Assembly: GCF_001578775.1 (NCBI RefSeq) | Contig: NZ_KQ969062.1 | Coordinates: 441,539-505,538 of the forward strand | Length of the DNA stretch: 64,000 nt | DNA from: Streptococcus cristatus | GTDB lineage: Bacteria; Bacillota; Bacilli; Lactobacillales; Streptococcaceae | Reading direction: 5' to 3' | Part shown: piece after piece, positions 43,917 through 48,405 of the stretch | Position numbering within the stretch: position 1 is the stretch's first letter | How the letters are laid out: each line of letters starts with the position of its first letter | Notes under the pieces: generated by a model | What the model was told of the DNA's origin: nothing | The model's input: only the letters and a program-made list of their open reading frames with translations | The model's database searches: none | Position numbers and translations under genes: made by a program

Positions 43917-43963
43917 AACATGACATCAATGTCATGTTGAACCATATATGGTTGTTGTATAAT
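43917..43963 (+). promoter_or_regulatory. Bacteriocin promoter with ComR-type box
   Basis: Perfect inverted repeat with arms AACATGACAT and ATGTCATGTT two bases apart (43917-43938), matching the published ComR-box pattern AACA-n-GACA-N4-TGTC-n-TGTT. Its centre is about 42 bases before the expected start. Then a 14-bp palindrome AACCATATATGGTT (43940-43953) and TATAAT (43958-43963). The only -35 candidate, TTGAAC, is 15 bases away, fitting an activator-dependent promoter. The regulator is not in the window. Confidence 0.75.
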
Positions 43964-44051
43964 ATAGGTGTTGGGTCAATGTTTGAAAAAAACTGACCGC
44001 AAACAATATATTAACAAGGTTAAGAAGACCTTGTAAAAAAGGAGAACACAT

Positions 44052-44225
44052 ATGGAAAACTTTGCTATGATGGACAACCAATTTGCTGCGTTGACTGAAG
44101 AAGAAATGATGATGATCGACGGTGGATGGTCATTCTACGGTGTCCCTGTTGATATTTTCACAGTATCATTGGCTATTTTGGGTGGCTCATTGGTTTCAGG
44201 CTTCTTAGTAGGACTTTTTAGCTAA
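44052..44225 (+). CDS. Double-glycine bacteriocin-like peptide 1 (57 aa)
   Basis: Short gene behind AAAAAAGGAG. The 25-residue leader ends MMMIDGG and carries Phe-15, Leu-12, Met-7 and Ile-4 relative to the GG cut, the pattern recognised by ComA-type C39 peptidases. The predicted mature peptide (32 residues) starts WSFYGVPVD and ends in a hydrophobic Gly-rich segment with GxxxG-like spacing (LGGSLVSGFLVGLF), suggesting a membrane-active class II peptide. No homologue recalled. The two hairpins in its leader RNA (GGTCA/TGACC, ACAAGGT/ACCTTGT) are unexplained. Confidence 0.85.
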   Translation: MENFAMMDNQFAALTEEEMMMIDGGWSFYGVPVDIFTVSLAILGGSLVSGFLVGLFS

Positions 44226-44256
44226 TTAGTATTTCAAATAGAAGAAGGTGAATTTC

Positions 44257-44517
44257 ATGAACAAAGATTTTAAATCATTGGATCAAAAATTTATGCCACT
44301 TACTGAAGCTGAATTGGTTGAAGTAGAAGGTGGATGGGTCGGTGGTGACCTTGTACGTGCCGTATTTGATATCGGTCGTGAAGTTGGTCGCACTGTACGT
44401 GGACTTGCTGTTCGTGCATATGGTCGTATTCGTTCTAGAATTGGATCAGGATCTGGTTCTAGCAACGGTGGTGGCACTAACAACGGTGGTGGCGCAGACC
44501 AAGGAATTTTTAACTAA
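44257..44517 (+). CDS. Double-glycine peptide 2, Arg-rich with a Gly/Ser/Asn tail
   Basis: 86 residues from ATG 44257 (GAAGAAGG site eight bases upstream; an in-frame GTG at 44248 is within that site). Leader of 26 residues ends LVEVEGG with Phe-15, Leu-12, Leu-7, Val-4. The mature 60-mer has eight Arg, no Lys, net positive, in an amphipathic stretch, then a low-complexity tail (GSGSGSSNGGGTNNGGG). Unusual for a class II bacteriocin; it could instead be a signal or a two-peptide partner of peptide 1. 31 bases after peptide 1, same transcript. Confidence 0.8.
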   Translation: MNKDFKSLDQKFMPLTEAELVEVEGGWVGGDLVRAVFDIGREVGRTVRGLAVRAYGRIRSRIGSGSGSSNGGGTNNGGGADQGIFN

Positions 44518-44537
44518 TATTTTTTGTTTCGACATAG

Positions 44538-44575
44538 AGCCTCTTGTTCGTCTTGATTGGGACAAGAGGCTTTTT
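44538..44575 (+). terminator. Terminator after the peptide genes
   Basis: GCCTCTTGT/ACAAGAGGC stem followed by TTTTT. It separates the abundant peptide mRNA from comAB. Confidence 0.9.
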
Positions 44576-44710
44576 AGTGTAGAATGGTCTGATAAAGTTA
44601 CTTTATGTCTGTTTTTTAAGTAATTTTATGTTTACATGGAGTAAAACGACTGATACCATTGGAAAAATACGCCATATTAGTGTATGATAGAGATATCTAT
44701 TTTTTGCTCG

Positions 44711-44802
44711 TTGTGAAAGTTTTCTTCCTAATTTATACTTGTTTTTTTGCTAGAGAGAACCGCTATGGATAAAGTTGACAAGCAGTTTTTATTGAATAGT
44801 AT
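44711..44802 (+). promoter_or_regulatory. Two candidate promoters before comA
   Basis: TTGTGA (44711-44716), 17 bases, TATACT (44734-44739); and TTGACA (44775-44780), 16 bases, TAGTAT (44797-44802). I looked for a ComE-type direct repeat and for a second ComR box here and found neither. Confidence 0.6.
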
Positions 44803-44823
44803 GTTTACTAATTAGGAGTTTTT

Positions 44824-44871
44824 ATGCGAGGGTCGTTCTCCATAAAAGCAAATTTACACTTTTGTGAATAA
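44824..44871 (+). CDS. Possible 15-residue peptide upstream of comA
   Basis: MRGSFSIKANLHFCE then stop, with AGGAG (44814-44818) five bases before the ATG and ending ten bases before comA. It could be a leader peptide coupling translation to comA. A second frame (44765-44815, MDKVDKQFLLNSMFTN) has no good ribosome site. Neither resembles ComS or SHP pheromones closely. Confidence 0.35.
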   Translation: MRGSFSIKANLHFCE

Positions 44872-44881
44872 AGGAGTTTGT

Positions 44882-47035
44882 ATGAGATTTACAAAGCGTC
44901 ATTATAGGGCTCAAGTTGACGCGAGAGATTGTGGTGTAGCAGCGCTAGCCATGATATATGGCTATTATGGTTCCTATTATTCTTTGGCTAGTTTGCGTGA
45001 AATGGCCAAGACAACTTTAAGAGGAACAACTGCTTTTGGGCTAGTGAAGGTTTCGGAAGAGTTAGGTTTTGAAACACGAGCCTTTAAAGCAGATATGTCT
45101 TTATTTGATATGAAGGGCATCGTTTATCCTTTTATCGCCCATGTTATCAAAGATAAGAAATTGCTTCACTATTATGTTGTGACTGGGCACGATAAACATT
45201 CGGTTTATATTGCGGATCCAGATCCGGCTGTTAAAATGACCAAACTTTCTAAGGAACAGTTTGCGCAAGAGTGGACAGGTGTCTCTATTTTCATCGCCCC
45301 AGCGCCAGAATATAGACCACACAAGGAAAAGAAAAACGGTCTCTGGTCTTTTGTTCCAATTTTAATGAAACAAAAGGGACTGATTGCCAATATCGTTATC
45401 GCAACGATGCTGGTGACGATCATCAATATCGTGGGCTCTTACTACATGCAGGGGATTATTGATACTTACGTACCGAATCAGATGAGGAATACCTTAGGGA
45501 TCATTTCTCTCGGTCTAATAGTCGTCTACATTTTGCAACAGGTTCTAACTTATGCTCAGAGCTATCTGCTTCTCATCTTGGGCCAACGTCTTTCGATTGA
45601 TGTGATTTTGTCCTATATCAAGCATGTCTTTCATCTGCCCATGTCTTTTTTTGCGACGAGAAGGACAGGGGAAATCGTATCGCGCTTCAACGATGCCAAT
45701 AGTATCATTGATGCCTTGGCTAGTACTATTCTGTCCATCTTTTTGGATGTCTCTATCGTTGTCGTTATGGCAATTGTTTTGTTCTCGCAAAATTTCTATT
45801 TGTTCTTCATCAGTTTGCTCTCGCTGCCAATCTATATCGTCGTGATTTTTGCTTTCATGAAGCCATTTGAAAAAATGAATCGCGATACGATGGAATCTAA
45901 TGCCATTTTGTCTTCTTCTATTATCGAAGATATCAATGGTATTGAGACGATCAAATCCTTGACAAGTGAAGATTTCCGCTATCAAAAGATTGATAGAGAA
46001 TTTGTTGACTATCTGAAGAAATCATTTGCCTATAGTCGGATGGAAAACATCCAAATCGGCTTGAAGAAGACGGCTCAGCTCTTGCTGAATGTTGCAATCC
46101 TTTGGATGGGAGCCCTTTTGGTTATGGACAATAAAATGACCTTGGGGCAATTGATTACTTATAATACTTTGCTGGTTTATTTCACAAATCCGCTGGAAAA
46201 CATTATCAATTTACAAACCAAGCTTCAGACTGCACAAGTTGCCAATAATCGCTTGAACGAGGTTTATCTGGTTGACTCTGAATTTATGGATAAAAAAGCG
46301 ATCCGTGATTTGAGCATGACCAAGGGCGACATTGAGTTGAAAAATGTCAGCTACAAGTATGGCTATGGACGAAACGTTCTGTCAGATATTAATTTGACCA
46401 TTGAAAGAGGCAGCAAGGTGGCCTTTGTAGGAATTTCTGGTTCTGGAAAGACGACTCTTGCTAAGATGATCGTGAACTTTTACGATCCAAACGAGGGAGA
46501 AATTCTGGTTAATAATATCAACCTCAATCAGATTGATAAGCATGTCTTGCGCCGTCATATCAATTACTTGCCGCAACAGCCTTATGTCTTTAATGGGACC
46601 ATCTTAGAGAATGTTCTCCTAGGTGCCAAGCCTGGAACGACTCAGAAAGAAATCATTCGGGCGTTGGAAATTGCAGAAATCCGTGAAGATATTGAACGGA
46701 TGCCTTTGAATTACCAAACAGAATTGACATCGGATGGTTCAGGAATTTCAGGTGGTCAGCGTCAGCGCTTGGCCTTGGCTCGGGCTCTTTTGACCGATGC
46801 TCCTGTTTTGATCCTTGATGAGGCGACCAGCAATCTGGATATCTTGACAGAGAAAAAGATTATTGACAACCTTTTGGAGTTGGACAAGACCATCATTTTC
46901 ATTGCCCATCGATTGACTATTGCGGAGCGATCTGAAAAAGTGGTTGTTCTGGACAAGGGTGAAATCGTGGAGCAAGGAACGCATGAAGAGTTGGTTGCTC
47001 AGGATGGCTTCTATGCTCATCTGGTGAATAGTTAG
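44882..47035 (+). CDS. comA: ComA, C39-peptidase ABC exporter for double-glycine peptides
   Basis: 717 residues, the exact length of pneumococcal ComA and very similar throughout. N-terminal C39 cysteine protease (Cys in VDARDCGVAALAM, His in LLHYYVVTGHD, Asp in IADPDP), six-span membrane domain (about 160-440), and ATPase with Walker A GISGSGKTT, signature ISGGQRQRLALA, Walker B VLILDEATS. Cleaves after GG while exporting the two peptides next door and possibly the competence peptide. Start 44882 follows AAAGGAG. Confidence 0.94.
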   Translation: MRFTKRHYRAQVDARDCGVAALAMIYGYYGSYYSLASLREMAKTTLRGTTAFGLVKVSEELGFETRAFKADMSLFDMKGIVYPFIAHVIKDKKLLHYYVVTGHDKHSVYIADPDPAVKMTKLSKEQFAQEWTGVSIFIAPAPEYRPHKEKKNGLWSFVPILMKQKGLIANIVIATMLVTIINIVGSYYMQGIIDTYVPNQMRNTLGIISLGLIVVYILQQVLTYAQSYLLLILGQRLSIDVILSYIKHVFHLPMSFFATRRTGEIVSRFNDANSIIDALASTILSIFLDVSIVVVMAIVLFSQNFYLFFISLLSLPIYIVVIFAFMKPFEKMNRDTMESNAILSSSIIEDINGIETIKSLTSEDFRYQKIDREFVDYLKKSFAYSRMENIQIGLKKTAQLLLNVAILWMGALLVMDNKMTLGQLITYNTLLVYFTNPLENIINLQTKLQTAQVANNRLNEVYLVDSEFMDKKAIRDLSMTKGDIELKNVSYKYGYGRNVLSDINLTIERGSKVAFVGISGSGKTTLAKMIVNFYDPNEGEILVNNINLNQIDKHVLRRHINYLPQQPYVFNGTILENVLLGAKPGTTQKEIIRALEIAEIREDIERMPLNYQTELTSDGSGISGGQRQRLALARALLTDAPVLILDEATSNLDILTEKKIIDNLLELDKTIIFIAHRLTIAERSEKVVVLDKGEIVEQGTHEELVAQDGFYAHLVNS

Positions 47036-47049
47036 AAAGGAGAAAGAAG

Positions 47050-48405
47050 ATGGAAGAACATTACTTAGAGAGTGCTGAATTTTATAACCGTAGATATTCT
47101 AGCTTTTCTGTGCGCGTGATTTTACCGACTTTCTTCTTGTTGATTTTTGTGGTCTTATTCTCCCTATTTGCTAAAAAAGAAATCACTATTACTTCAGGTG
47201 CTTCTATTGAGCCTAGCAAGATTCTGGCTAACATCCAATCAACCAGTAACAATGCCATTGTCACTAATAATTTGAAGGAAAACAAGATTGTTAAAAAAGG
47301 GGATCTTTTAGTTCAGTATAAGTCTGATAGTGAAAATACTCAAAAAGAAACCTTCTCCTCTCAAGTAGAAAGCTTGAAGGAGCAAAAACGTCAATTGGAG
47401 CTGCTGCAAGAAAGTCTGAAGACGGGGACTAGCCAGTTTTCAGGAGAGGATCGCTTCGGCTATGAGCAAGCATTTAATGATTACAAGAATCAAGCTGCGA
47501 GTATCCGTAGTAATACTGAGCAGCAAAATTCGACCATTGCTTCTCAAAATTCAGCAGCTAGCAATTCACAGGCAGAGCTGGGGAATTTGATCAATGAAAC
47601 AAATGCCAAATTAGCAGATTACCAGACCCTTAGAAATGCTATCCAAAATGGGACAAGTGTCCCTTCGACTAATGCCGGCTATAGCATCTATCAGGCTTAT
47701 GAGACACAAGCTGCTGCAGATAGTCAAGGTCAGCTAAAGAGTCAGGTTCTTTCGCAAATTGATAGTCAGATTTCTCAGTTTGAATCAGCTCTTGCAGGTT
47801 ATCGGGTGCAGTATGCGGGCTCTGGTGCTCAGCAAGCCTATTCTGGTAGCCTGGATAGCCAGCTTGAGTCTTTGAAAGCTCAGCAGTTGACTAAAGTTGG
47901 TCAAGAATTGACGGCCTTGAATCAAAAGATTTTAGAAGTTGAAAATAATCTCAAGGTGCAAGGTGGTATCACTCAAAAGGGCATGATCACAGCAACTGAA
48001 GATGGTATTCTCCATCTAAATCCTGAAACAGCAGGAGCGAATCTGGTTCCCGAAGGGAAGTTACTCGCTCAGTTGTATCCTGTTTTGACCAAGGAAAAAA
48101 AGGTTGTCATCACAACCTATGTGACCTCGAAAGATGTAGCTAGTCTGAAAAAAGGTGAGACTCTGCGTTTCACTGCAATGGATGGAAATAATAAAGAATT
48201 TGTTCTCAAATCTAAAATTTCAAACATTGACAACAATGCGACGAAAACGGAAAAAGGCAATTTCTTTAAGGTGGAAGCTGAAATAAGCTTAACGGATGCC
48301 CAAGCCAAGAAGATGCGTTATGGTATTGAAGGTCGTGCGGTAGTCATTACAGGAAGCAAAACCTACTTTGACTATTACTTGGATCAATTCTTGAGAAGAG
48401 ACTAA
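47050..48405 (+). CDS. comB: ComB, accessory protein of the ComA exporter
   Basis: 451-residue HlyD-type membrane-fusion protein: one N-terminal span (about 20-42), long periplasm-like coiled coil (about 90-290) rich in Gln/Ser, and a C-terminal beta domain. N-terminus LESAEFYNRRY and IEPSKILANIQSTSNN are close to pneumococcal ComB. Same operon as comA, 14 bases downstream. Weak hairpin at 48456-48482. Confidence 0.93.
   Translation: MEEHYLESAEFYNRRYSSFSVRVILPTFFLLIFVVLFSLFAKKEITITSGASIEPSKILANIQSTSNNAIVTNNLKENKIVKKGDLLVQYKSDSENTQKETFSSQVESLKEQKRQLELLQESLKTGTSQFSGEDRFGYEQAFNDYKNQAASIRSNTEQQNSTIASQNSAASNSQAELGNLINETNAKLADYQTLRNAIQNGTSVPSTNAGYSIYQAYETQAAADSQGQLKSQVLSQIDSQISQFESALAGYRVQYAGSGAQQAYSGSLDSQLESLKAQQLTKVGQELTALNQKILEVENNLKVQGGITQKGMITATEDGILHLNPETAGANLVPEGKLLAQLYPVLTKEKKVVITTYVTSKDVASLKKGETLRFTAMDGNNKEFVLKSKISNIDNNATKTEKGNFFKVEAEISLTDAQAKKMRYGIEGRAVVITGSKTYFDYYLDQFLRRD

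Follow-up and report, generated by a model that had tools for sequence, protein, structure and literature searches.

The peptide locus and its promoter

The window, the whole 64,000-nucleotide stretch of DNA under analysis, which comes from the oral bacterium Streptococcus cristatus, harbors two small peptide genes that lie between a palindromic box and comAB:

43917..43938, no strand: ComR-type palindromic box of 22 bp, AACATGACATCAATGTCATGTT, that is, AACATGACAT-CA-ATGTCATGTT
43940..43953, no strand: inverted repeat AACC-N6-GGTT in the spacer from box to -10 element, recognized by eye from the alignment
43958-43963, plus strand: -10 element TATAAT, starting 19 nt after the box, without a fitting -35 element
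44052..44225, plus strand: peptide 1, class II bacteriocin-like, 57 aa, double-glycine leader
44257..44517, plus strand: peptide 2, 86 aa, double-glycine leader, basic stretch and variable Gly/Ser/Asn-rich tail
44536-44575, plus strand: terminator-like hairpin with T tail, between the peptide genes and comA (-21.2 kcal/mol, z -5.98)
44659..44688, plus strand: promoter-like sequence of comA, TTGGAA-18-TATGAT, matching the consensus at 9 of 12 positions
44882..47035, plus strand: comA, peptidase C39 / ABC exporter (TIGR01193, 1132.9 bits; PF03412, PF00664, PF00005)
47050..48405, plus strand: comB, accessory protein (TIGR01000, 523.9 bits)

Both peptide genes encode the double-glycine leaders described in the first-pass annotation. 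Peptide 1 matches PF10439 (30.1 bits, cut-off 27.1) and TIGR03949 (24.7 bits, cut-off 21.5) and finds no match in the plasmid collection. Peptide 2 matches no family in the same two profile sets and is present in all 12 genomes that carry peptide 1. Compared with a class IIb two-peptide bacteriocin, the pair has both leaders but a family match on peptide 1 alone. No immunity gene is recognized between the peptides and comA when the ORF list is read.

The box had been annotated as a perfect palindrome of the form AACA-n-GACA-N4-TGTC-n-TGTT, and AACATGACATCAATGTCATGTT indeed fits with 0 mismatches. A search for more copies finds it to be the sole exact match in the 2.2-Mb genome; across the genus, 67 of 284 genomes have an exact match, against none of the 284 for the backward control. 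When as many as 3 mismatches are tolerated, the mean over shuffled versions of the window is 0.27 matches (at least one match in 22 of 100), and the genome holds 12 places, four of which were examined for their surroundings besides the box of the window. The sites with 1, with 2 and one with 3 mismatches fall within open frames; the site at C4:23034 lies directly downstream of ComR1. The core TGACATNNATGTCA, at up to 1 mismatch, occurs at 17 genome places; five of the seven examined are within open frames, the other two being the box of the window and a site downstream of ComR2. The box also conforms to AACANGACA-N4-TGTCNTGTT, the ComR operator consensus of the first-pass annotation, which the boxes downstream of comR genes fit as well.

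No -35/-10 pair using the TATAAT emerges from the promoter scan, in keeping with the earlier description of a -10 element without a proper -35. The "42 bases" given earlier as the distance to an expected start hold for the interval from the box center to the expected (estimated) transcript start, but not for the start codon of peptide 1, which lies 113 nt after the box. ComR promoters keep a fixed distance between box and -10 element, and the peptide promoter has it at 19 nt: across 41 comR loci the spacing is 19 nt in 18, 18 nt in 1 and 20 nt in 1, the remaining rows being two odd values and 19 without a score, in a set that used a poorer palindrome for ComR2 genes than the better one given by the 97-gene set described below. 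A T-rich spacer, reported as a ComR promoter feature in the accessible part of PMC6703854, is absent from the peptide promoter, where the spacer is GAACCATATATGGTTGTTG. The ACC-N6-GGT of this spacer is retained in all 9 box-bearing genomes (alignment, by eye). Sequence and spacing to the -10 element support the assignment of 43917-43938 as a putative ComR-type operator.

Conservation of the box

Among 12 genomes of S. cristatus and relatives with these peptides, 9 keep the box; of the three others, two have another promoter, and in one a contig end interrupts the region, which leaves it undecided. The palindrome is thus conserved in relatives that keep the peptide genes, a point on which the first-pass annotation had made its reading depend. 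Within the 9 genomes, none of the 20 specified box positions varies, vs. 31 of 162 other compared promoter positions (p 0.027). One of them, S. cristatus S22 (G024), has the box, and neither mini-ComR (see below) nor full-length ComR was found in it; G024 groups with G019 in the peptide-locus tree and shows no such grouping in the xseA tree.

The hairpin and comAB

The terminator annotated after the peptide genes is recovered as the hairpin at 44536-44575, which the terminator scan leaves unlisted, its loop of 10 exceeding the limit of 8. The promoter scan that gave the comA site found 13 such sites vs. 4.3 in shuffles. The order comA then comB after the terminator is likewise confirmed by the peptide-export transporter and accessory family matches, and a C39 peptidase ABC exporter with an accessory protein makes up a ComAB-type exporter. 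Control of comAB by the box, by contrast, is not upheld: the hairpin stands between them, and the hairpin and the promoter-like block upstream of comA are common to all 12 peptide-bearing genomes, box or no box. Some read-through past the hairpin into comAB may occur. The window contains no ComR_TPR or ComC-family match, in agreement with its reported lack of comR and comC; both occur elsewhere in the genome. This genome has one ComC-family peptide; with a 31-position model, no such peptide turned up in 7 of the 9 box-bearing genomes.

Candidate regulators

ComR is a well-studied streptococcal pheromone receptor. The regulator of Rgg/ComR type that the first-pass annotation called for exists in the genome, where two full-length proteins, ComR1 and ComR2, lie outside the window and match PF18710 (ComR TPR domain). 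The regulators considered below are:

G000:C4:39743-40660: ComR2, full-length, Ala class
G000:C1:1540219-1540884: conserved Rgg, found in 12 of 12 peptide-bearing genomes
G000:C1:1660747-1660968, minus strand: mini-ComR (name coined here), 73-74 aa, outside the window

The mini-ComR gene lies between a gene taken for NAD(P)H-hydrate dehydratase and one taken for xseA. Its product is the ComR DNA-binding domain alone, intact and without the pheromone-binding TPR domain. Unlike ComR1 and ComR2, it does not match PF18710, so that we place it outside the ComR family, as a protein that would do the work of the DNA-binding half. Its ComR-type HTH is evident from solved sequences, alignment and Foldseek: all five matching solved sequences belong to ComR, among them two constructs of the DNA-binding domain, and the model (pLDDT 91.4) has ComR as its top Foldseek matches. 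Its RQLxR motif keeps Arg, Gln and Arg in every row of a 22-row alignment; mapped by motif spacing, these correspond to R33, Q34 and R37 of S. mutans ComR, of which R33 and R37 are essential for DNA recognition and Q34 contacts the TPR domain, according to the part of PMC8383118 available.

At ≥95% identity, mini-ComR occurs in 8 of 284 genus genomes, all 8 of which belong to the 9 that carry the box before the peptide genes, and in none of the other 275. In G021, G023 and G025 it is present and full-length ComR is absent; in a fourth of the eight, G241, the sole full-length ComR has a G...C-type box. With a pooled pN of 0.011 and pS of 0.204 (ratio 0.056; 28 pairs, 8 genes), mini-ComR is under strong purifying selection. 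G037, G273 and G068 also have short comR-like frames, but these were rejected as kin: they are full-length genes broken by a frameshift, and TPR-like sequence is present in a different frame. The short HTH frame of G217 has no TPR-like remnant. Among the literature matches listed, from a search in which most subscription journals are not covered, there is neither a natural HTH-only ComR nor a prior report of the S. cristatus peptide locus.

The residue before the second recognition Arg appears to go with the box class. The comparison used 97 ComR-like genes picked by HTH motif and length rather than by PF18710, from loci fetched largely by likeness to mini-ComR; 34 without a palindrome were dropped, leaving 63 with one downstream. 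Genes with Ala or Val have T...A boxes in 37 of 44 cases and those with other residues in 0 of 19 (Fisher p 1e-10, relatedness uncorrected). Mini-ComR has Ala and so belongs, by sequence, to the class with mostly TGACA...TGTCA boxes, as at the peptide promoter.

A proposed pheromone-blind regulator and its alternatives

Our main reading, at about even odds, is that the pheromone-blind mini-ComR serves a ComR-type operator and that a full-length ComR, in genomes that have one, acts there too. The palindrome would occupy the place of the -35 element, and transcription of the peptide genes would require a protein that bears the DNA-binding domain of ComR, of which mini-ComR would be the resident representative in the species complex. 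Mini-ComR retains the DNA-reading residues and is missing the TPR domain, which in ComR hides them until pheromone binds; because this domain is missing, it should bind the box without pheromone, possibly in the form of a small dimer, as stand-alone HTH controller proteins do. We infer such binding and dimerization, and activation is the preferred effect, since the promoter has no -35 element and is kept where mini-ComR is the only matching regulator found. Mini-ComR would fix peptide production at a level that does not depend on pheromone; a full-length ComR whose box class matches, where present (as here), would add pheromone-dependent control or compete. The peptides may be switched without sensing a pheromone signal.

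Several points count against mini-ComR: the box of G024 stands without mini-ComR or ComR, the peptide promoter is missing the T-rich spacer described for ComR promoters, and 7 of the 44 Ala/Val genes are without a T...A box. The nine box genomes are close relatives, so that the co-occurrence of box and mini-ComR may reflect common descent. As far as PMC8383118 was accessible, ComR dimerizes through its TPR domain and a swap of DNA-binding domains, for which reason a lone domain may bind poorly; a DNA shift is described there only with ComR plus XIP, and no DNA assay of the lone domain was found in that part.

Control by full-length ComR2 and its pheromone, with mini-ComR as a competitor or devoted to another target, would resemble S. 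salivarius, where ScuR and ComR drive bacteriocin promoters (PMC6703854, in the part available). ComR2 is of the Ala class, downstream of its gene stands TGACATTTCTGTCA at a distance of 19 nt from a TATAAT (by eye count in the 22-bp frame), and after the ComR2 box of G020 comes a 16-aa ORF ending in GGWWG (translated by hand). However, an ABC-transporter gene piece occupies the place of this ORF in G000, G019 and G022. Moreover, full-length ComR is missing from 4 of the 9 box-bearing genomes, which precludes a ComR circuit driven by pheromone as the general case, and in a fifth (G241) the only full-length ComR has a G...C-type box. This alternative is rather unlikely. Of the ComR/Rgg peptide circuit first proposed for the peptide genes, the operator type, the 9/12 conservation and the two regulators stand, whereas its generality does not, given those four genomes.

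Another regulator acting on the palindrome, either the conserved Rgg or a factor unrecognized by the models used, would account for the box of G024, which has no ComR-type protein that was found, and the extra ACC-N6-GGT repeat suggests more than one input. Yet the Rgg is set aside as box regulator by its presence in every peptide-bearing genome regardless of the box, and box sequence and spacing match those downstream of comR genes, which makes such a regulator improbable. The patchiness of full-length comR in the clade and the frameshifted comR in three other genus genomes checked could also point to a relict of a lost ComR circuit, now without a regulator in most strains. The invariance of the box beside a varying promoter (p 0.027) and the purifying selection on mini-ComR itself render this highly improbable.

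Relation to known systems

Restriction controller proteins act as dimers near -35. The HTH controllers C.BclI, C.AhdI and C.Esp1396I resemble mini-ComR in size and fold (TM 0.78-0.85, normalized to the model), but share 20-27% identity with it and have other targets. In pneumococcus, BriC is a double-glycine peptide linked to ComAB, as here, and is under ComE control; we know of no ComR box for BriC/ComAB. The salivaricin promoters of S. salivarius, under ScuR/SarF and ComR, are alike in having a palindrome at a fixed -10 distance and bacteriocin-like targets; in what is available of PMC6703854, the regulators are full-length TPR proteins and the spacer is T-rich, whereas the S. cristatus promoter has no T-rich spacer and the regulator of 8 of the 9 box-bearing genomes has no TPR domain. 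The paratox complexes 7N10 and 7N1N hold the same ComR domain, as 68-69 aa laboratory constructs in contrast to the natural 73-74-aa mini-ComR (PMC8383118, available part).

Tentatively, and at slightly less than even odds, this commensal clade may have reduced ComR to the DNA-binding domain and placed a bacteriocin-like promoter under it, so that a predation switch once gated by pheromone became pheromone-blind, whether as a controller-like activator or as a built-in antagonist of incoming ComR systems. The residue-to-box link, if it holds up, would make ComR targets predictable from sequence. With mini-ComR, nature provides a test of the capacity of the lone domain to act on transcription, and a conserved, naturally tailless ComR domain that works through a ComR box would show how a predation gene can be freed of quorum control and still retain the operator.

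Box and promoter layout

The first-pass description of the palindrome AACATGACATCAATGTCATGTT (43917-43938) holds exactly, and the accompanying elements were recovered as well: a TATAAT at 43958-43963, 19 bases past the box, with which a promoter scan pairs no -35; two double-glycine-leader genes (peptide 1 and peptide 2, 44052-44225 and 44257-44517); and a strong terminator-like hairpin, followed by comA and comB. In family searches, peptide 1 scores above threshold for both PF10439 and the lactobin A/cerein 7B model, and peptide 2 has no match. The stretch between box and -10 lacks the T-rich character reported for the spacer of ComR promoters (PMC6703854, excerpt). An AACC-N6-GGTT inverted repeat of varying centre occupies this interval (43940-43953) and is a possible second operator; in the alignment, ACC-N6-GGT is kept in all nine box-bearing genomes.

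The hairpin upstream of comA, together with a block carrying a promoter-like TTGGAA-18-TATGAT, is common to all 12 peptide-bearing genomes, box present or not; the two peptides are therefore most likely all that the box controls, read-through apart. Judged from adjacency, ComAB plausibly exports both peptides.

Conservation of the box

The window site is the only exact match to the box pattern in its genome; across the genus, 67 of 284 genomes carry it exactly (backward control, 0/284). When named genomes were searched for a tighter form, AACATGACATNNATGTCATGTT, 29 stretches emerged; they come from five assemblies of S. cristatus, from other streptococci, from an Enterococcus and from one further bacterium. 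Over the compared stretch, the S. cristatus loci are identical to G020, G021, G022, G023 and G024 of the genus set, and that of Streptococcus sp. Marseille-P6264 to G241.

Peptide 1 is found at ≥ 91% identity in 12/284 genomes, nine of which carry the box at the corresponding position, in line with the expectation that relatives keeping the peptides also keep the palindrome. In G125 and G131, TTGACA-17-TATAAT replaces it; in the remaining genome (G230) the contig begins 90 bases before the peptide 1 gene. A GAAAGCCCT/AGGGCTTTC inverted repeat flanks the -10 in G131 (L025) and G125 (L026), where the box is missing. Among the nine genomes, none of the 20 specified box positions varies, vs. 31 of 162 other compared promoter positions (p 0.027).

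Full-length candidate regulators

As anticipated, ComR/Rgg-type regulators are encoded in the genome: one Rgg and two full-length ComR-type proteins with the TPR domain PF18710, both on a contig other than that of the window, about 17 kb apart and each with its own downstream palindrome:

G000:C4:23055-23981, ComR1 gene (L047)
G000:C4:39743-40660, ComR2 gene (L048)

Rgg is present in 12/12 peptide-bearing genomes, and its presence thus does not follow the box. Full-length ComR occurs in 6/12; it was not found in four of the nine box-bearing genomes (G021, G023, G024, G025), yet G131 has one without a box.

The palindrome downstream of ComR2 is of the T...A type (TGACA...TGTCA). There, hand translation in G020 gives a 16-aa ORF ending GGWWG, which resembles WW-type ComS peptides. 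In G000, G019 and G022 a piece of an ABC-transporter gene occupies its place, and so the local pheromone gene seems to have been lost. The region of the two comR genes includes genes read as rpsJ, polA, adhE and ruvB. Near ComR2, L300 (G000:C4:34000-39800) holds two peptides of 48-49 aa that resemble each other at the N-terminus, a 454-aa ABC-exporter-like protein and a small protein that also adjoins comR in G020 and G131; it looks like a decayed peptide cluster. Elsewhere (L192, around G000:C1:1030174-1030248), a 43-aa double-glycine peptide adjoins a 444-aa histidine-kinase-like protein, likely a BlpC/ComC-type pair.

A stand-alone ComR DNA-binding domain

A loose-limit search with ComR2 as query uncovered mini-ComR, whose ORF is intact and encodes 74 aa (73 aa in G019 and G020); it sits between genes provisionally read as NAD(P)H-hydrate dehydratase and xseA. 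At ≥ 95% identity it occurs in 8/284 genomes, all box-bearing; among the matches listed, others reach at most 59%. These genomes form a small clade of relatives, and common descent may account for the co-occurrence. In G024, the ninth genome with the box, the flanking genes have no mini-ComR ORF between them; it keeps the box, and no partner regulator was found there. Pooled pN is 0.011 vs. pS 0.204 (28 pairs), which indicates selection rather than a fresh wreck. A further short HTH frame of ComR type, in which no trace of a TPR domain is visible, is L302 (G217:C1:14600-16700); L301, L303 and L304 (G037, G273, G068) proved to be full-length comR genes with frameshifts.

Mini-ComR matches five solved sequences, all ComR, two of them DNA-binding-domain constructs. 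Its predicted model (pLDDT 91.4) retrieves ComR first in structure searches, along with stand-alone controller proteins. The TPR domain of ComR keeps hold of the residues that read DNA, releasing them once the pheromone binds (excerpts of PMC6703854, PMC8383118); since mini-ComR does not match PF18710, we infer that it is pheromone-blind. ComR dimerises through the TPR domain plus a DBD swap (PMC8383118, excerpt), and the lone domain may therefore be weak.

Residue and box class

The Arg-Gln...Arg of the RQLxR motif, by our mapping R33, Q34 and R37 of S. mutans ComR, is invariant in an alignment of 22 rows (A1; seven mini-ComR). Among 97 distinct full-length ComR-like genes, a non-random, related set from loci gathered largely for their likeness to mini-ComR, 63 have a GAC-N6-GTC palindrome ≤ 250 nt downstream. 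With Ala/Val before the second Arg, 37/44 boxes are T...A and 1/44 G...C (GGACA-type); with other residues, 0/19 and 11/19 (Fisher test, kinship ignored). This residue is a possible specificity code. Across L012 to L275, Ala/Val goes mostly with TGACA; Gly, Thr, Gln and Tyr often go with GGACA, never with the symmetric TGACA form. ComR1 (Thr) and the G241 ComR (Gln) have G...C boxes; mini-ComR and ComR2 carry Ala, and both thus suit the window box. The spacing between box and -10 is 19 nt in 18 of 41 ComR loci, 18 and 20 nt once each and odd in two, with 19 loci giving no score.

Taken together, the sequences point to a ComR-type operator at bacteriocin-like genes, whose likely partner in this predicted circuit is the conserved, pheromone-blind mini-ComR; the patchy full-length ComR would act on top of it.
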